A DNA stretch of 64,000 bases, taken from contig SWDS01000006.1 of NCBI GenBank assembly GCA_005116745.1, forward strand, positions 731,222 through 795,221, written 5' to 3'. Under the pieces are notes generated by a model. It was not told the origin of the DNA. It saw only the letters and a list, made by a program, of their open reading frames with translations, and made no database searches. Shown in pieces: positions 41,875 through 53,577 of the stretch; position 1 is the first letter of the stretch, and each line of letters opens with the position of its first letter. This DNA comes from Nitrospira sp. (GTDB lineage Bacteria > Nitrospirota > Nitrospiria > Nitrospirales > Nitrospiraceae). Made by a program: the position numbers and the translations under genes.

Positions 41875-42034
41875 CTTCTGTCAACGGAGTCGGATGCAAC
41901 CCTCTTGCTACTCACGCTACCATGCGAGAGAGTTCAACTCAATCGCGGATCTTTCTTGAGAACCTCGCAGGGCGTATCTTATAATGCGCCGGCTTTCTGC
42001 AGGTGTGTCTCAAGATGTTAGGAGGAATCGTTCC

Positions 42035-42532
42035 GTGATTGAAAGCGACGTGTTTGTCCAAACGATGCAGGACATGGGAGTGAATTTCTTTACCGGTGTG
42101 CCAGATTCGATTCTGGGTGGGATCATTGCGGAACTCATGAACCGTCGGCTCTATACCCCCGCAGTTCGTGAGGATGAAGCGGTCGGCATGGCTGCGGGCG
42201 CCTATATGGCTGGGAAAACCCCCGCCGTGCTCATGCAGAATTCAGGACTGGGTACCTCTCTCAATGCGCTCATTTCGCTGAATATGATTTATCAACAACC
42301 CTGCATACTGATTGTTTCCTGGCGTGGGCAGGGGGGGAAGGACGCTCCGGAACATTTGGTGATGGGAGAGGTGATGCCGCAATTGCTTGATACCGTCAAG
42401 ATTCCGCACCGGACCCTGACTGAAAAAACAGTGATTGAAGATTTTAGGTGGGTCGCTGAGACATTCATGAAGCAGCGGATTCCGGTCGCCTTGTTTATCA
42501 CCAAAGGCGTGGTCAAGGGATTGCATCCATGA
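42035..42532 (+). CDS. Phosphonopyruvate decarboxylase, N-terminal (alpha) subunit
   Basis: The 165-residue protein is the pyrimidine-binding half of a thiamine-diphosphate decarboxylase: FFTGVPDSILGGII and REDEAVGMAAGAYMAGK, whose Glu activates the cofactor. The partner half follows with a four-base overlap, as in split phosphonopyruvate or sulfopyruvate decarboxylases. The next gene is a 2-aminoethylphosphonate transaminase, so phosphonopyruvate is the likely substrate, giving phosphonoacetaldehyde. Start GTG 42035 has AGGAGG nine bases upstream. Confidence 0.85.
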   Translation: MIESDVFVQTMQDMGVNFFTGVPDSILGGIIAELMNRRLYTPAVREDEAVGMAAGAYMAGKTPAVLMQNSGLGTSLNALISLNMIYQQPCILIVSWRGQGGKDAPEHLVMGEVMPQLLDTVKIPHRTLTEKTVIEDFRWVAETFMKQRIPVALFITKGVVKGLHP

Positions 42533-43107
42533 GGCCCGAACAAGGCACATTGATCAGTCGGGCGCAGGCCATGGAGGCCTTGCTGGAGTTGCTGACCGAT
42601 CAGCCCGTCATTATCTGCAACGGGTTTCCCTCGCGCGAGGCGCACAAGATCGCGGATCGGCCCACTCATTTCTACATGATCGGCTCCATGGGGAATGCTT
42701 CGGCTATTGCCCTCGGTGTTGCGCTCGCCAAGCCGAATAAACAGGTGATTACCTTCGATGGCGACGGGAATGTGCTCATGGGAATGGGTACACTCGCGAC
42801 GGTCGGTGCATTGAGACCAAAGAACTTTATCCATGTCGTCTTCGACAATGAAGTGTACGGAACGACCGGGAACCAGCCGACGATCTCCAACGTGGTGCCG
42901 CTGGAGAAAGTGGCGAAGTCGGCGGGCTACGTGAATGTGGAACGGGTCCTTGATCGCGAGGATCTCGTCTACGAGTTCAAGGACATGCTGAAGAAGGATG
43001 GGCCTAGCATGTTGCTCATTAAGGTGAACGAATTTGTGGAAGATGCCGGTCGCGTCCTGCACGACCCGCCGGATGTCACCCGTCGATTCATGAAGGCGAT
43101 TGAATAG
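42529..43107 (+). CDS. Phosphonopyruvate decarboxylase, C-terminal (beta) subunit
   Basis: The 192-residue protein supplies the diphosphate-binding half. The metal/TPP motif GDGNVLMGMGTLATVG (GDG...N type) is near residue 80, followed by FDNEVYGTTGNQP. It forms a heteromer with the alpha subunit. The start overlaps the alpha stop (ATGA). Phosphonopyruvate is preferred over sulfopyruvate because of the downstream AEP transaminase and cytidylyltransferase. Confidence 0.87.
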   Translation: MRPEQGTLISRAQAMEALLELLTDQPVIICNGFPSREAHKIADRPTHFYMIGSMGNASAIALGVALAKPNKQVITFDGDGNVLMGMGTLATVGALRPKNFIHVVFDNEVYGTTGNQPTISNVVPLEKVAKSAGYVNVERVLDREDLVYEFKDMLKKDGPSMLLIKVNEFVEDAGRVLHDPPDVTRRFMKAIE

Positions 43108-43168
43108 TCGCCTGCTGTCAGCTGTCAGCTTCTGAAAGCGCTGATCGCTGATTGCTGAAAGCGAGAAT
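43108..43168. repeat. Short self-similar intergenic stretch
   Basis: This gap contains repeated CTGTCAG/GCTGAT units and two CTGAAAGCG copies (43132-43140 and 43155-43163). It looks like a short dispersed non-coding repeat rather than a regulatory site. Confidence 0.3.
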
Positions 43169-44251
43169 ATGATTCTCCTCAATCCAGGTCCCGTGAATGT
43201 GTCCGAGCGGGTGCGGCAGACGCTGCTGAAACCCGATATCTGTCATCGCGAAGATGAATTTCTAGAACTGCTTCACCGCATCCAAACCAAGCTGCTCAAA
43301 GCCTTTGTTCCCGGAGCCGAATCGGACTACGTTGCCGTCGTGATGACCGGATCGGGGACGGCTGCTGTCGAAGCCGCCTTGATGTCGTCGCTTCCTCACG
43401 GTCGCCGGATGCTCATCCTCAACAACGGGGTCTATGGTGAACGGATGTCTCAGATCGTGGGCCTCCATCGTCTGGGGGTGAGCGAGTTGAAGTATGACTG
43501 GACGGTTAGGCCAGACCCTGAGAAGCTGCTGCTGGCCTTGCGACAGCATCAGGAAGTGCATGCCGTCGGCATGGTGTACCACGAGACCACCACCGGACTT
43601 CTCAACCCTGTTCATGAGATCGCCGAGATCGTTGACAATCAGAATCGTGTGTTTGTGCTGGATGCCGTCAGTGCGCTGGCAGGTGAAACGCTGAATATTG
43701 CCAAGTCGCACATCTATATGGTGACGGGGACGGCGGGAAAGTGCATTCAGGGATTTCCAGGCGTCTCGTTCGTGCTTGTGCGAAAGGGGTTCGTCGAGAA
43801 AATGCGCGCGTATCCGAAGCGCTCGTGGTATCTCCATCTGACTCATTACATCAACAATGAGGGGCGAGGCACGATTCCATTCACGCCCGCAGTGCAGGTC
43901 TACTATGCTTTTGACGAAGCACTGAATGAGTTGCTCGAGGAAGGCGTGGCCAATCGCATCCAGCGGTATAAGAAGATGGCGACGCTGATTCGTGAACGAA
44001 TGGCCAAGTTCGATGTGAAGGCGCTTCTCCCGGCGGACCGGCAATCGAATACCATCACGGCCTATCACCTGCCGGACGGGGTTTCTTACCAGACGTTGCA
44101 TGACCGCCTGAAGCAGCAGGGCTATGTCATTTATGCCGGGCAAGGCAACTTGGAAAACAAGATTTTTCGCGTGGCTAATATGGGGGCACTGTCCGAGGCG
44201 CAGTTTGGCGGATTTCTCGATGCCTTCGAACAGGTCTGCAAATCAGCATGA
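43169..44251 (+). CDS. 2-aminoethylphosphonate-pyruvate transaminase
   Basis: The 360-residue class V PLP transaminase converts phosphonoacetaldehyde to 2-aminoethylphosphonate (or the reverse). The active-site Lys is probably Lys191 in TGTAGKCIQGFPGV; MTGSGTAAVEAALMS near 55-69 binds the cofactor phosphate. The family (AlaX/PhnW) includes serine-glyoxylate and alanine-glyoxylate enzymes, but its position after phosphonopyruvate decarboxylase makes biosynthesis of AEP the best reading. The stop overlaps the cytidylyltransferase start (ATGA). Confidence 0.88.
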   Translation: MILLNPGPVNVSERVRQTLLKPDICHREDEFLELLHRIQTKLLKAFVPGAESDYVAVVMTGSGTAAVEAALMSSLPHGRRMLILNNGVYGERMSQIVGLHRLGVSELKYDWTVRPDPEKLLLALRQHQEVHAVGMVYHETTTGLLNPVHEIAEIVDNQNRVFVLDAVSALAGETLNIAKSHIYMVTGTAGKCIQGFPGVSFVLVRKGFVEKMRAYPKRSWYLHLTHYINNEGRGTIPFTPAVQVYYAFDEALNELLEEGVANRIQRYKKMATLIRERMAKFDVKALLPADRQSNTITAYHLPDGVSYQTLHDRLKQQGYVIYAGQGNLENKIFRVANMGALSEAQFGGFLDAFEQVCKSA

Positions 44252-44967
44252 AGGCGGTCATTCTGGCAGCGGGAGTCGGGAAACGTTTGTGGGAAGTGAC
44301 CCAACATCGCCCGAAATGCCTCATCGAGATTGGCGGCCGGTCGCTCCTGCATCGCTATCTGGAGTCGCTGGTTTCCGTTGGGATTCGCCGGGCTGAGATT
44401 GTTGTCGGATACAAGCAGGAGATGATTCGTGCGGCGGTCGAGCAGGATTGTTGCGGCGTCAACGTCACGTTTTTGGTCAATGAACAGTTTCATAGGGGCA
44501 GTATTTCTTCACTGTGGATCGCACGAACCGCGCTCGACGACGACACCATCGTGATGGATGCCGATGTGCTATTCCATCCAGAAATCCTACGACGTCTCGT
44601 GGCGTCACCCTGTGAGAATGCGCTGTTGATGGATGAGACGGTACAGCAAACTGGAGAGGAGTGCATGGTGGTCGTGGCCGGGGGCCGAGTGATTGCACTG
44701 ACCAAGAATATGCCGGAACGTTACGATTACGCCGGTGAAGGGGTTGGATTTCTTCGGATTCGGCACGCCGACACGACTCATGTTGTCTCGTCGCTCCGTG
44801 GCTACATCGACCGAGGCTCATGGGAGATGGAGTATGAGGACGCGCTGCGGCCGTATTTTCAGGACGTGCAGGTTGGCTATGAACGAATTGGAGGGCTGCC
44901 TTGGACGGAGATTGATTTCATCGAAGACGTAAGAAAGGCTGAATTGGAAGTTTTGCCAAAACTATGA
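44248..44967 (+). CDS. Nucleotidyltransferase, probable CTP:2-aminoethylphosphonate cytidylyltransferase (PntC-like)
   Basis: The 239-residue protein has the NTP-binding signature AVILAAGVGKRL at its start and PKCLIEIGGR, then a MDADVLFHPE acidic metal-binding site (about 107-116). It belongs to the LicC/phosphocholine cytidylyltransferase group, which includes PntC, a 2-AEP cytidylyltransferase that makes CMP-AEP. Its overlap with the AEP transaminase gene argues for AEP as substrate. An alternative is phosphoethanolamine or a sugar phosphate. Confidence 0.82.
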   Translation: MKAVILAAGVGKRLWEVTQHRPKCLIEIGGRSLLHRYLESLVSVGIRRAEIVVGYKQEMIRAAVEQDCCGVNVTFLVNEQFHRGSISSLWIARTALDDDTIVMDADVLFHPEILRRLVASPCENALLMDETVQQTGEECMVVVAGGRVIALTKNMPERYDYAGEGVGFLRIRHADTTHVVSSLRGYIDRGSWEMEYEDALRPYFQDVQVGYERIGGLPWTEIDFIEDVRKAELEVLPKL

Positions 44968-45054
44968 GAAAGTCTTCGTTATAGTACGCTGTTCGATGAA
45001 GAGGGACCCTGCGCCAGGGAACAGTGGTGAGCAGACACAGGTGTCTAGAGAACC

Positions 45055-46491
45055 ATGAGTAAGAGCATCCTCCAAAGAAGAGTCGAGATTCAAGGGTTGG
45101 CCACGGCGATTCTGCTACCGTCGGTCGGGGTATTCAGCGGTCCGATCGGGACGCAGGTCGACGACGTAGGGCCCCTGACTAGTGTCGTGGGGATCGGGCT
45201 CTTTCAACGAACCGTACTCACCTTGCAGCGGGCGGGTATTCGTCAATTAATCGTCCTGTCCGGTTCTGAGGAGGAACAGCTGAAACAGGCGCTCGGCAAA
45301 GGGCCACGCGTCACAATTCCCGTCCGATGGATGCCGATCCGTGAATTTCCTCTCGATGATCCTCGGACCTGGGAAGCCTTGGCGGCTGAAGTGCATGGCT
45401 TTGCATTAGTCGCGAGCGTCAATAGCGTGTTCTCTCGAGGGTTGATTGAACGGTTGCGGCGCGAGGTGCAGGATGGTCAGGCCATTGTGGTCTCGCAAGC
45501 CTCACAGGGGCAGGTCGATCAGTTCATGGTGCAGAGCCTGCGAGCGAAAGTCCGTTCTGATCGCCCGACGATTTTCGCCCCTCCTCGTTTCGACAGTCCA
45601 GCCTTACGAGTGGCTGAGCTTGTGGTCGTGCCGGCAAGCCTGATGAGCACCACGAATCAAGCCGTGAGTGAGAAGGGAAGCCCTCCGATCCGCCAGTGGC
45701 TTGAGCGGGCTGCGACGAATGGTCGAGTGCATGTTGTCTCGGCTGAGGCGAAGCAGGGGAATTGGTATCAACCTGTTCGGACGCTGTCTGACGTTCAAGC
45801 AGCCGAAAAGAAGTTGTTCAATTCCCTCAAGGGGGAGTTCGAAGGGTTCGTCGATCGCTATTTCAATCGCAAAGTCTCTCGCTGGTTTACCCGCCTGTTT
45901 CTCGCCATGGGGCTGTCGCCCAATTCCATCACGGTCCTTGCCGGGCTGGTTGGTCTGCTGGCGGCTGCGGGATTTGGGATGGGCACCTACAGCGCCGGTA
46001 TCGTGGCAGCCCTCTTGTTCCAATTGGCGGCCGTCATCGATTGCTGCGATGGCGAAGTCGCGCGGTTGACCTTTACCGAGTCGCCGCTTGGCGCCTGGCT
46101 GGATATCGTGTTGGACAACATCGTGCACATGGCGATTTTTGCGGGTATCGCCGTGGGACTCTATACGACTTACCTCGGACAAGCAGACGACTGGGTTCCA
46201 CTCGCACTCGGCACCGCTGCGGTGTTTGGCAACGGTCTCTCCCTCGTACTCGTCGAAAAGGCGCAAAAGATTAAAGCGGTGAGTGGCTGGAGCACCCCTG
46301 CCCATGCAGCTTGGGCGGATATGATGTTGAAAAATGTGGCCAGCCGAGATTTTTCAGTAGCGCTGTTGGGCTTTGCCCTGTTCGACCAGCTGTATTGGTT
46401 TCTCATCTTTGCGGGAGCCGGCGCATTGCTGTTTGCTGGTGCCATGGGCTGGGTCATCCGCCCATCCGCAGTCTCATCTCCTCGGCCATAA
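45055..46491 (+). CDS. CDP-alcohol phosphatidyltransferase with degenerate N-terminal NTase-like domain
   Basis: The 478-residue protein joins an N-terminal domain (about 10-245) resembling an NTP transferase to a CDP-alcohol phosphatidyltransferase (about 275-475). The latter has a complete motif D-G-x2-A-R-x8-G-x3-D-x3-D (DGEVARLTFTESPLGAWLDI...D) and six helices. The N-terminal part lacks the AAGxGxR loop, so it is probably inactive or regulatory; archaeal and bacterial inositol-phosphate enzymes are fused in this order. In this operon it probably moves CMP-AEP onto a lipid alcohol, forming a phosphonolipid (inference). Confidence 0.82.
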   Translation: MSKSILQRRVEIQGLATAILLPSVGVFSGPIGTQVDDVGPLTSVVGIGLFQRTVLTLQRAGIRQLIVLSGSEEEQLKQALGKGPRVTIPVRWMPIREFPLDDPRTWEALAAEVHGFALVASVNSVFSRGLIERLRREVQDGQAIVVSQASQGQVDQFMVQSLRAKVRSDRPTIFAPPRFDSPALRVAELVVVPASLMSTTNQAVSEKGSPPIRQWLERAATNGRVHVVSAEAKQGNWYQPVRTLSDVQAAEKKLFNSLKGEFEGFVDRYFNRKVSRWFTRLFLAMGLSPNSITVLAGLVGLLAAAGFGMGTYSAGIVAALLFQLAAVIDCCDGEVARLTFTESPLGAWLDIVLDNIVHMAIFAGIAVGLYTTYLGQADDWVPLALGTAAVFGNGLSLVLVEKAQKIKAVSGWSTPAHAAWADMMLKNVASRDFSVALLGFALFDQLYWFLIFAGAGALLFAGAMGWVIRPSAVSSPRP

Positions 46492-48958: not shown

Positions 48959-49186
48959 ATGATCAAAAAGCTGACCAAACATGGAAACAGTCTAGCTCTC
49001 GTGATCGACCGCGGAGTGCTGGATCTGCTGGAGATTGACGCCGAGACGCCGCTCAACATCAAGACGGACGGGAAGTGCCTCATCGTGACGCCTGTGCAAG
49101 ATGCGACTCGCCAAAAGAGGTTTCGTACAGTGCTAAGCGAGACCAATCGGCGGTATGGGAAAGCGTTAAAGAAGCTCGCCGAGTAA
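48959..49186 (+). CDS. Orphan AbrB/MazE-like swapped-hairpin protein
   Basis: The 75-residue product starts with the AbrB/MazE-type swapped-hairpin fold: KLTKHGNSLALVIDRGVLDLL and TPLNIKTDGKCLIVTPV. MazE-like proteins usually pair with a toxin gene, but none follows here; the frame after the stop is a short non-coding-like one. It may be an orphan antitoxin or a small regulator. A GAGGTGAG site lies upstream of the ATG. Confidence 0.8.
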   Translation: MIKKLTKHGNSLALVIDRGVLDLLEIDAETPLNIKTDGKCLIVTPVQDATRQKRFRTVLSETNRRYGKALKKLAE

Positions 49187-49312
49187 CCATGCTTCGTCAG
49201 CCTGGTGTCTCCATCCAAATGCTGCCCAACTTCTGCTTGTTGCTATCAGCTCTTTGTATGACTAGGCGCGATCCGAATCAGGAGGGTATTGATGGGAAAT
49301 GGGCAACGAAGG

Positions 49313-49612
49313 CTATTCCTTCGTGTCCCTGGCCTGATACCAGCGTTGCAGGTGCTTCAGTTTGGGCAATTTGGTTTTGTCGTTGAACAGGTAATTGCCG
49401 AGTAGACCATACAGAATGTAATCCACGAACAATGGGCGATTGGCCAGAAGAAACGGCGAAGCCGCCAGCATGCTGTCGATCGGCTTCAAGAGTTCCGCGA
49501 ACTGTTTGCACAGATACGGTCGGTGGGTGGTCCATTCTCGGACGCATCCTCGTCCGAACTTCCGCTCCTTATGCCGAACCATTATGACCCGCTCCCCGAG
49601 AGGGCGTGAAGG
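49313..49612 (-). pseudogene. Truncated glutathione S-transferase, C-terminal fragment
   Basis: The minus-strand translation continues upstream of the ATG at 49582 as PSRPLGERVI and then reads MVRHKERKFGRGCVREW, FAELLKPIDSMLAAS, SPFLLANRPLFVDYILYG and LPKLKHLQRWYQAR: the GST C-terminal helical domain. The thioredoxin-like N-terminal half with its glutathione site is absent, so the product should not bind glutathione. The homology stops within a few bases of the end of the histidine-kinase gene at 49615, which suggests a broken gene at an insertion boundary. Confidence 0.75.
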
Positions 49613-49614
49613 AA

Positions 49615-50373
49615 TTAAAGGGGGGCATCTACTTCAGGAAGGAACACGGAAAAAGTACTCCCATGTCTTAGGCGTGTTTTCATCTCTATCCAGCCACCGT
49701 TCCTCCTGACTATTTCTTTAGTTACATAAAGCCCAAGGCCAGTTCCCTTTTTCTCTTTTGCGGAAAAGAATGGCTCAAAAATACGTGGCAAGTCTTTCTG
49801 TGAGATCCCACATCCATTGTCGGAGACTGATATGCAAACAAACGAACCAACCAAAGCGTCAGGATGGCCAGCCAGGTATTCATTGGTTATGGATACAGAA
49901 TTAGTTGCTATGGTGATCAAGCCTTTGTGTGAGATAGCGTCTCGGGCGTTCACCAATAGATTCATCATGACTTGCTCAAACATTTGAGGGATAGCAGTAA
50001 TCCTAAGTGGTTTTGTGAAGAGTTCAAAGGTGATTCTCACATCATTCCCTAGAAAAGCTGAGAGCCCATCCGCCATTTTTGTCAGTAGATCATTTATTTC
50101 AAAGGTGCCATCACGTTCGATAGCAGCATCCTTACCCAGCGATTGGATTGTGCGGACGAGGCGCTTACCCAGATTTATGGCCGATAGGATCCCATTAGCC
50201 GATTCCCGCAAGGGGCCTTCAGGGGCCTGACTAGCCAACTTAGCTGACTGTTTTTGGATGGATGAAAGAATGTTTTCGAACTCATGAGCGAACGCAGTTC
50301 CAATTGTGCCAAGTAGCAACTCTGCCTTCTCGTCCGCTAATGCTTCCCAGTGTTGAATGCTGGCTTGAATCAA
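49615..50373 (-). CDS. Soluble histidine kinase lacking a sensor domain
   Basis: The 252 residues from a TTG at 50373 contain a DHp helix with the phospho-acceptor His30 in TAFAHEFENILSSI. A complete HATPase domain follows (N-box NLLVNARDAI, G1 DNGCGIS, F-box FEPFFSAKEKK, G2 GTGLGLYV). There is no membrane helix or response regulator nearby. The frame stays open upstream of the TTG through ESRYCEKLGTYIELERAKYL-type helical sequence into the 3' end of the SIR2 gene, in the -1 frame, with no ATG, GTG or TTG there. The true start is therefore uncertain, and a fusion with SIR2 by frameshift is possible. Confidence 0.8.
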   Translation of the reverse strand: MIQASIQHWEALADEKAELLLGTIGTAFAHEFENILSSIQKQSAKLASQAPEGPLRESANGILSAINLGKRLVRTIQSLGKDAAIERDGTFEINDLLTKMADGLSAFLGNDVRITFELFTKPLRITAIPQMFEQVMMNLLVNARDAISHKGLITIATNSVSITNEYLAGHPDALVGSFVCISVSDNGCGISQKDLPRIFEPFFSAKEKKGTGLGLYVTKEIVRRNGGWIEMKTRLRHGSTFSVFLPEVDAPL

Positions 50374-50483
50374 TTTCTGCTGCTCTGGTGTGAAGCGTGC
50401 TTCCTGCCTCCGTGAACGAAGATACTTAGCTCGCTCGAGCTCGATATAAGTTCCAAGTTTTTCGCAGTATCGACTCTCGATAT

Positions 50484-51380
50484 CTATAAGCTCTTTAGGC
50501 GTTGCAACTCTTCGTCTTCGGTTGAGGGAGGAAGGGCTTTTACTTGTCTGGAGAGCTCTCCCATCATCAGTTGAAGTTCCTTGTGGTCGTCCTTGCTGCT
50601 GTAAGGGATAATTCTGATATTGTAATTCTCTGAAAACGACTTCCTTAAAACATTCCCAGCATCAGGGAAGAGGGCGTAGTGTCGCCTGCCAAATTCCCTA
50701 TAGAGAGAAGCATGCGCCCCTAGAATAAGATCTAGATCGTGATCTCTCAGTCCATAACCAATGAATAATGCTGTGCGCGTCGCAAAAATGTGGGACATTG
50801 AGGCCTGGTATAACGGGCTAGAGTGAATTACCTTTTGGTAGTCTTTCTTTCTGAGTACAACCGTTTCAATGTCCTCAGCATCCCCGTGCATTTTGAAAAT
50901 AAAGAAGCGCTTTTGAGTGCATAGTTGTGACAGCTGAGCCAAGTTCTTCGATGTGAACGTGAATGGGTAACTGCTACTTCGAAGTTGCTTCGCGTAAGTT
51001 CGTTCAATCAAGGTGTCATAGTTTGTTGTCAGGATTGCGCTAAGAGGAAGGTCTAGCAACAGCTCATGCACCTTTGTTGGGCCGTTTCGGTTTCCACCAA
51101 AGGTGTTCTGAATGAAGTTTCTATAGAGATCGCCACGTAAGAGATCTGCACATTCCTCAGCGACTTCTGGATAATGTCCTTTCCGCAGTAGGGATTTCAG
51201 CTCTTTGCTCTGAGTGAAGCTGACCAGTTGCCTTTGGCACTCTGAAATCATCAACTCCAAGGTTTCTTTCCAATTGGGGAAGCCCGCCTGAAGGGAAAGG
51301 CCAGAGCCAATAATTCCGATAACTTCATTAGAGCGAAAAGAATCGATCAGATCTTGTGGGAATGTGATGGATCTAGTCAT
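50484..51380 (-). CDS. SIR2-like family protein, candidate NAD+ hydrolase
   Basis: The 298-residue protein has the SIR2 (SIR2_2-type) fold with catalytic residues in place: GIIGSGLSLQAGFP at 22-35 (NAD loop), TTNYD with Asn120, KMHGD with His165, and FIGYGLRDHDLD near residue 210. In bacterial defence systems this kind of SIR2 domain depletes NAD+ after infection is sensed. It lacks the zinc-binding Cys of histone deacetylases. The gene is visibly AT-rich and overlaps the frame of the adjacent kinase, suggesting one acquired unit. Target and trigger are unknown. Confidence 0.82.
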   Translation of the reverse strand: MTRSITFPQDLIDSFRSNEVIGIIGSGLSLQAGFPNWKETLELMISECQRQLVSFTQSKELKSLLRKGHYPEVAEECADLLRGDLYRNFIQNTFGGNRNGPTKVHELLLDLPLSAILTTNYDTLIERTYAKQLRSSSYPFTFTSKNLAQLSQLCTQKRFFIFKMHGDAEDIETVVLRKKDYQKVIHSSPLYQASMSHIFATRTALFIGYGLRDHDLDLILGAHASLYREFGRRHYALFPDAGNVLRKSFSENYNIRIIPYSSKDDHKELQLMMGELSRQVKALPPSTEDEELQRLKSL

Positions 51381-51558
51381 TGCGTGCTTCTGTTTGATCT
51401 AGAGTACAAAGACGGTGCAGGCTACTTCGCACCAGTGACCATGTCAACTCGAAGTCTCTGCGTCGTTAGGATGCGGATGGTTGCGTAGTCATAGTGCAGT
51501 ATTCAGCTAATGTGTAAGGCAGTTCGAGTCGCGCTCACTTCTTGGCTTTTATGTTAGG

Positions 51559-53577
51559 ATGCCGCGCATGAAAGTGGCGGTGAATCTGCTCTGGCTACTG
51601 CTCTCTCTTCTTGGTGCGCTCGCGCTGGCCCACGTGGTCGGCGTTGTGAACCCAAACGAAAAAGTAAACGGCCTCTGGTTGGTCGTCGCGGCAGCCTGTA
51701 TTTATGTACTGGCCTATCGGTTCTATGGCCGATGGCTGGCTAGGCAGGTCGTTGGTCTGAACAATCAGCATGTGACGCCGGCGGTGCGGTTGAATGACGG
51801 CGTCAATTTTCATCCCACCAACAAGGTTGTGCTTTTTGGCCATCACTTTGCCGCGATTGCTGGAGCAGGGCCCTTGCTTGGTCCGGTCTTAGCGGCGCAA
51901 TTCGGATTTGTGCCGGGGTTTCTCTGGCTGGTGATTGGGGCGGTGCTGGCTGGGGCGGTGCAAGATTTCATCATTCTCGTCGCCTCGATGCGGCGCAACG
52001 GACGTTCGTTGCCCGAGATTGCCCACGATGAACTGGGCTCTGTCACCGGCACGGCGACGGCGGTCGCGGTGCTCTTTATTGTCGTGGTGGCTCTGGCTGG
52101 TCTTGGATTCGCCGTGGTGAATGCGCTCTACCACAATGCCTGGGGCACGTTTACGATCGCGATGACGATTCCGATTGGTCTTCTTATGGGCTTCTATCTT
52201 CAAAAGTTCCGTCCCGGTGCGGTTGCGGAAGTGTCAATACTTGGCGTGGTTCTACTGATCGCCGCCGTGCTGTACGGCCGTGTCGTTGCGCAGTCGTCCT
52301 ACGCGTGGCTCTTCGAGTTTGACAAGCCCTCGCTGATCTGGCTCCTGGCCGGCTATGGGTTTCTCGCGTCGGTCTTGCCGGGTTGGATGTTGCTGGTGCC
52401 GCGCGGCTATCTCTCCACCTTCATGAAGCTCGGCGTGGTCTTTCTACTCGGGTTCGGGGTCATTCTTATGGCACCGACGATCGAGATGCCGCGTGTGACA
52501 CAGTTTGCGAATGGCGGCGGGCCAATTATTCCAGGCACGCTCTTTCCTTTTCTCTTTATCACGATCGCCTGCGGGGCAATCTCAGGATTCCACTCTCTGG
52601 TCTCGTCCGGGACAACGCCCAAGATGATCGAACAGGAATCGCAGGCGGTAGTGGGGTATGCGGCGATGCTGCTGGAAAGTTTTGTTGGCGTCATGGCGTT
52701 GATCGCGGCCTCGGTGCTGATTCCTGGCGACTACCTGGCGATCAATACGACATTAGGTGCGGATGCATTGGCGGCGATGGGTTTTCCCCCGTCGCGAATT
52801 GCTGAACTGTCACAGATGGTTGAAGTTGATGTGGCTGGGCGTCCTGGCGGGGCTGTGTCTTTGGCCGTCGGCATGGCGTCGATCTTTTCAGCGTTGCCCG
52901 GCATGGCGGGTCTGATGGCCTACTGGTATCAATTCGCACTCGTATTTGAAGCGCTCTTCATCCTGACGACGATTGATACGGGCACGCGTGTGGCGCGATA
53001 TCTGATCCAAGAAATGGCCGGACGGGTCTATGCGCCCTTTCGCCGAATGAACTGGATGCCGGGTGTGATGTTGAGCAGCGGTGTGGTCGTGGGTGCCTGG
53101 GCCTATCTGATTGGAACAGGGAGCATTTCGACCATTTGGCCGATGTTTGGTGCTGCGAATCAGTTGTTGGGCACGCTGGCTCTTTGCATCGGGACAACCG
53201 TCTTGATCAAGATGTGGAAGTCGCCCTATCTCTGGGTGACGGCGCTGCCGATGCTCTTCGTGGGCATCATCACCCTGACCGGATCGTATGAAATGTTTTG
53301 GATGTTCTTGAAGAAAGCCGGAACATTAGCGGCAGGGCAAGCCTTTGCGCTCTATCTGGATGCTGTGCTGGTGGCACTGGTTGCGGTGCTGGGTTTGATT
53401 GTCTTAAGCGATAGTGTATGGCAGTGGTATGGCTACGTGGTGCTGAAAAAGCCCTTTACGAGCAGTGAGGTGGTTGTGATGGCTGGTGGAGGGTCTGCAG
53501 GGCGGATGCAGACGGCGATCCATTGTGCTGATGACGAGAAGAGTTTTAAGCTGCCGCATGGAACGGGATGTTGTTGA
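51559..53577 (+). CDS. Carbon starvation protein CstA-like peptide/pyruvate transporter
   Basis: The 672-residue membrane protein has about sixteen helices. Family motifs include HFAAIAGAGPLLGPVLAAQFG near 95-115, MRRNGRSLPEIAHDELG and GAISGFHSLVSSGTTPK near 350. CstA relatives import peptides or pyruvate during starvation. The start could be the ATG at 51559 or 51568. The gene is not in an operon with the cassette upstream (178-base gap, different composition). Confidence 0.92.
   Translation: MPRMKVAVNLLWLLLSLLGALALAHVVGVVNPNEKVNGLWLVVAAACIYVLAYRFYGRWLARQVVGLNNQHVTPAVRLNDGVNFHPTNKVVLFGHHFAAIAGAGPLLGPVLAAQFGFVPGFLWLVIGAVLAGAVQDFIILVASMRRNGRSLPEIAHDELGSVTGTATAVAVLFIVVVALAGLGFAVVNALYHNAWGTFTIAMTIPIGLLMGFYLQKFRPGAVAEVSILGVVLLIAAVLYGRVVAQSSYAWLFEFDKPSLIWLLAGYGFLASVLPGWMLLVPRGYLSTFMKLGVVFLLGFGVILMAPTIEMPRVTQFANGGGPIIPGTLFPFLFITIACGAISGFHSLVSSGTTPKMIEQESQAVVGYAAMLLESFVGVMALIAASVLIPGDYLAINTTLGADALAAMGFPPSRIAELSQMVEVDVAGRPGGAVSLAVGMASIFSALPGMAGLMAYWYQFALVFEALFILTTIDTGTRVARYLIQEMAGRVYAPFRRMNWMPGVMLSSGVVVGAWAYLIGTGSISTIWPMFGAANQLLGTLALCIGTTVLIKMWKSPYLWVTALPMLFVGIITLTGSYEMFWMFLKKAGTLAAGQAFALYLDAVLVALVAVLGLIVLSDSVWQWYGYVVLKKPFTSSEVVVMAGGGSAGRMQTAIHCADDEKSFKLPHGTGCC

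Follow-up and report, generated by a model that had tools for sequence, protein, structure and literature searches.

The SIR2 and histidine kinase ORFs and their genomic setting

We analysed a 64,000-nucleotide stretch of a Nitrospira sp. genome (hereafter, the window), in which a SIR2-like ORF and a histidine kinase ORF lie next to each other on the minus strand. The SIR2 ORF (50484..51380, 298 aa) contained one Pfam domain only, a SIR2_2 NADase-type domain (PF13289, E=1e-26; 94.1 bits vs a curated cut-off of 24.5), and was also matched by the PADLOC ThsA model (4e-33). Both N120 (TTNYD) and H165 (KMHG) were intact and were invariant across all aligned homologues. Together with the PF13289 match, this bore out the original prediction, made from the sequence alone, of a SIR2_2-type NADase candidate carrying these two residues. 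The AlphaFold2 model of the domain (pLDDT 89.6) had DSR2 and ThsA as its nearest folds.

The second ORF (49615..50373, 252 aa from a TTG at 50373, its earliest ATG/GTG/TTG) encodes a DHp and HATPase_c histidine kinase core. All kinase boxes were present, including H30 within the H-box FAHEFENIL, the N-box NLLVNARDA, the G1 box DNGCGI and the G2 box GTGLGL. These boxes and the HATPase_c match (6e-21) confirmed the predicted soluble kinase with an intact His and ATP site, and a domain search found no sensor or receiver (REC) domain within this ORF. The two ORFs were also AT-richer than their neighbours, as had been claimed, with a GC content of 0.46-0.47 compared to about 0.51-0.59 in the flanks.

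The ORFs are the only genes in a variable cargo region (49616..51530), the flanks conserved in same-genus genomes ending at about 49615 and 51531. On one side lies a truncated gst fragment (49313..49614, minus strand), the 3' part of what is a 200-225 aa gene in several relatives, and on the other a conserved gene that we take to be cstA-like (51559..53577, plus strand). Same-genus genomes kept the cstA and gst flanks and differed in cargo. This included an AriA/GajA-like ATPase (G036), another SIR2_2 gene (G310), DndB (G220), DUF3800 (G257), an HD-domain gene (G307) and an HSDR_N-like gene (G149); in one genome (G167) the spot was empty. The cstA-gst site hence has the character of a variable spot, frequently occupied by defence genes. 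A SIR2_2 gene different from that of the window (L102:3013-4056) lies at this spot in a same-genus genome other than the window's.

Two further observations were made by eye elsewhere in the window. A short plus-strand ORF (48960-49187) resembles an AbrB/MazE-type antitoxin, with no obvious toxin partner. The region 41984-46491 may represent a phosphonate (2-aminoethylphosphonate) cluster, its genes comprising decarboxylase subunits, an aminotransferase, a nucleotidyltransferase and a CDP-alcohol phosphatidyltransferase-like gene.

Single-protein relatives and the frame change between the two ORFs

The close relatives found among the matches listed were single proteins only, at least three in number. 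The phylum scan gave as its nearest homologue a 1113-aa protein from a Nitrospirae MAG (G229), with the order SIR2, nSTAND1, HisKA, HATPase_c and REC. Genome-contig matches listed included a 1096-aa ORF from an Acidobacteria MAG (L105; SIR2-nSTAND1-HK-REC) and a 759-aa ORF from Opitutaceae (L106; SIR2-linker-HK-REC, without STAND). The SIR2 domains of the window and these three proteins formed one clade (support 100/98) that excluded 18 other SIR2 relatives. A structure model of the whole Opitutaceae protein gave a pTM of 0.32 and was too uncertain between domains to be of use.

We refer to these proteins as the SIR2-(nSTAND1)-HK fusion family, which is defined in this analysis and may have further members beyond the matches listed. 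It was present in 2/236 genomes of the order. Across the phyla of the acidobacterial and Opitutaceae proteins (about 400 genomes each), it occurred in the seed genomes only, the exception being one more distant Verrucomicrobiota SIR2 ORF with no HK within its 1.5-kb flanks. No further members were found in phages or among viral-contig loci, and no plasmid record spanned most of the query. Rare as it is, the parent family is real.

Every intact homologue had defence genes beside it: type I restriction-modification genes and an HSDR_N-RAMA gene (L105), PDC-M65A/B (L106), and a Drt8-type reverse transcriptase together with a broken integrase (G229). The PDC-M65A/B match is a two-gene pair (L106:502-3889) corresponding to a PADLOC candidate system, neither protein of which has a Pfam domain. 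Separately, SIR2-like and nSTAND1 occur as adjoining separate genes in two same-genus genomes (L239 in G202 and L241 in G310).

The window shares with the family a SIR2 domain of the fused clade, a conserved helical linker and the DHp/HATPase core, but these do not lie in one continuous reading frame. When aligned with the three homologues, the SIR2 segment and the linker-kinase segment fell in different frames, with the switch at 50496, where the SIR2 ORF has its final codons. Across 50484..50496 on the minus strand (CTA AAG AGC TTA TAG), the match to the single-protein relatives leaves the SIR2 frame and continues in the -1 frame. Upstream of the TTG at 50373, the kinase frame remained open and homologous for about 120 nt, to 50496, inside the SIR2 ORF. 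This stretch is the linker (50374..50496, minus strand; ELIDIESRYCEKLGTYIELERAKYL...), which is in the kinase frame and has no start codon of its own. Its score against a model built from the linkers of the homologues was 34.5 bits, whereas the best of 2000 shuffles scored 10.5. Given that the homologues are single proteins, that the frame switches at 50496 and that the linker is homologous although it lacks a start, the simplest reading is a single gene that a one-base frame change has split, and the 'sensor-less' kinase is probably the rear half of the gene to which the SIR2 ORF belongs.

We also considered programmed -1 frameshifting at CTA-AAG, which would yield two products, SIR2 alone as a short protein and SIR2 fused to HK. 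The required direction is indeed -1 and the junction carries an A_AAG tetranucleotide, a sequence able to slip in bacteria. However, the junction has no heptameric slippery site and no stable downstream RNA structure (z = +0.2 and +0.6), and the intact homologues do without a frameshift, making this mechanism very improbable.

A perfect 17-nt inverted repeat (TATTCATTGGTTATGGA) has one copy in the kinase ORF (49877-49893) and one in the SIR2 ORF (50751-50767), the only two copies genome-wide; by our estimate, about 2e-4 would be expected by chance in the stretch. No inversion between them was seen, both halves being collinear with the homologues across the repeats.

A split and decaying gene or a two-gene system

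We conclude, with a probability of roughly 0.7, that both ORFs are halves of one horizontally acquired, defence-type SIR2-linker-HK gene that was split by a frameshift and most likely survives only as a broken relic at this variable defence site. The ancestral gene would have encoded the SIR2 NADase domain, the helical linker and the DHp/HATPase histidine kinase in one protein. A net shift of one base around 50484-50496 would then have caused translation to stop just past the SIR2 domain, depriving the linker and the kinase of a normal start. The window copy would probably yield at most a free SIR2 domain and would probably no longer work as designed.

That the gene is broken is favoured because two other Nitrospiraceae genomes hold nothing more than decayed fragments of this kinase and because the gst gene in the window is truncated. 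Both fragments correspond to the 3' part of the kinase, one (G307) being interrupted by stops and frame changes and 71% identical at the nucleotide level across about 300 bp, the other (G212) 60% identical over 167 aa and missing its front part. They stop at the residue where the window kinase also ends, without REC. The C-terminal receiver, present in 3/3 intact homologues and absent in the window, was on this basis probably missing natively from the window lineage instead of being deleted. REC loss through a gst-side deletion was dropped as an explanation, given the shared end residue of the two fragments. Counting against a broken gene, the window copy was found in one genome only, with no intact copy of the same lineage, and the homologues carry REC and, in two cases, STAND, neither of which the window has.

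Also counting against decay, every catalytic motif survives in both halves, an observation just as compatible with a very recent break as with an assembly error or a split that works. If the assembly were in error, the organism would have an intact single SIR2-linker-HK gene, like the Opitutaceae protein minus REC. The lone net one-base difference, with all else intact, and the existence of that STAND-less single-protein homologue both agree with such an error, but an unsystematic look at other long ORFs in the window found no obvious splits and the junction has no long homopolymer. We regard an error of this kind as unlikely.

The other alternative is a genuine split system of two proteins, the kinase being translated from the TTG at 50373, or from a rare start codon adjacent to where SIR2 stops, and regulating SIR2 in trans. 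Retention of all catalytic motifs in both ORFs would suit this arrangement, as would the complete DHp and HATPase domains downstream of the TTG. Against it, the conserved linker upstream of the TTG would stay untranslated, the related Nitrospiraceae copies are decayed and, among 123 scanned loci with SIR2 relatives, none had a separate HK directly adjoining the SIR2 gene. Only the fused clade had both SIR2 and HK at these loci; at three of the 123 loci an HK lay 1.4-2.1 kb away. Two working proteins at this locus are accordingly improbable. The original prediction of a SIR2 and HK defence cassette, which had proposed searching other genomes for the gene pair, was not supported in its two-gene form. 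Co-occurrence as separate genes, whose absence elsewhere the prediction had named as grounds for rejecting it, was indeed not seen at the scanned loci, but the domains did recur in fused form. What was supported was the coupling of a defence-type SIR2 to an HK, the recurrence of the fused domains beside defence genes, and the location in a variable spot with defence cargoes.

Relation to known systems and proposed role of the family

The window system is not ThsA, DSR2, SIR2-HerA or Avs5, as tested here. Thoeris ThsA was the best PADLOC and PDB sequence match of the SIR2 domain, but ThsA proteins contain a second, C-terminal domain and work with a ThsB partner, whereas the window ORF ends at 298 aa, is coupled to a kinase instead and has no partner ORF in the cargo. 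Likewise, DSR2 was nearest in fold, but the window scored 38.7 bits against the Dsr2 model (cut-off 1400) and lacks the long C-terminal region of DSR2. In contrast to SIR2-HerA, no HerA ATPase gene was found next to SIR2 in the cargo.

The kinase was closest to CckA and VirA-like models, and the homologues add the REC domain of CckA-like hybrid histidine kinases; the window has the His, N, G1 and G2 boxes but not the C-terminal receiver. The input of CckA-like kinases is formed by PAS or transmembrane sensors, whereas here SIR2, alone or together with STAND, occupies that position. Detocs, a phosphorelay defence system, is a three-gene set of HK, REC and REC-effector, and no REC gene was seen in the window cargo.

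Both DSR2 and ThsA are NADases, and Avs5 consists of SIR2 followed by nSTAND3 (PF20720) (PMC12931631). Two intact homologues (G229 and L105) resemble Avs5 in having SIR2 (PF13289) and then a STAND NTPase, but they carry nSTAND1 with HK and REC, and the window has no STAND. Conflict systems based on nSTAND1 have interchangeable effectors, SIR2 being among those listed for a related system, and the excerpted text of that source, the one paper found to name both nSTAND1 and SIR2, describes no fusion to a histidine kinase (PMC8195603). Our search of the open-access literature found no description of a SIR2-HK fusion and no text naming 'SIR2 domain' together with 'hybrid histidine kinase'.

We infer that intact members of the family are NAD+-depleting abortive-infection proteins gated by a STAND and/or phosphorelay module. 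SIR2 effectors that deplete NAD+ are known to be activated by second messengers, by phage proteins or through STAND sensing. The likeliest scheme for the intact family, a predicted one, has infection sensed, or the oligomeric state set, by a STAND ATPase and/or the dimer of linker and kinase, with the kinase and receiver gating the protein through phosphorylation. Once activated, the SIR2 domains would hydrolyse NAD+, aborting the infection; both this NADase activity and the phosphorelay gating are predicted. We tentatively suggest, as a possibility that is still doubtful, that the SIR2-(nSTAND1)-HK-REC proteins represent a novel type of immune NADase, their activity being controlled by an integral His-Asp phosphorelay, the STAND-less members (L106 and the window lineage) using the kinase dimer as sensor or gate.

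The window copy is chiefly an example of such a gene, probably in decay, at a defence site. A SIR2 domain and a complete hybrid histidine kinase in one polypeptide would tie NAD+-depleting effectors to two-component signalling, a link that the intact homologues make directly testable.
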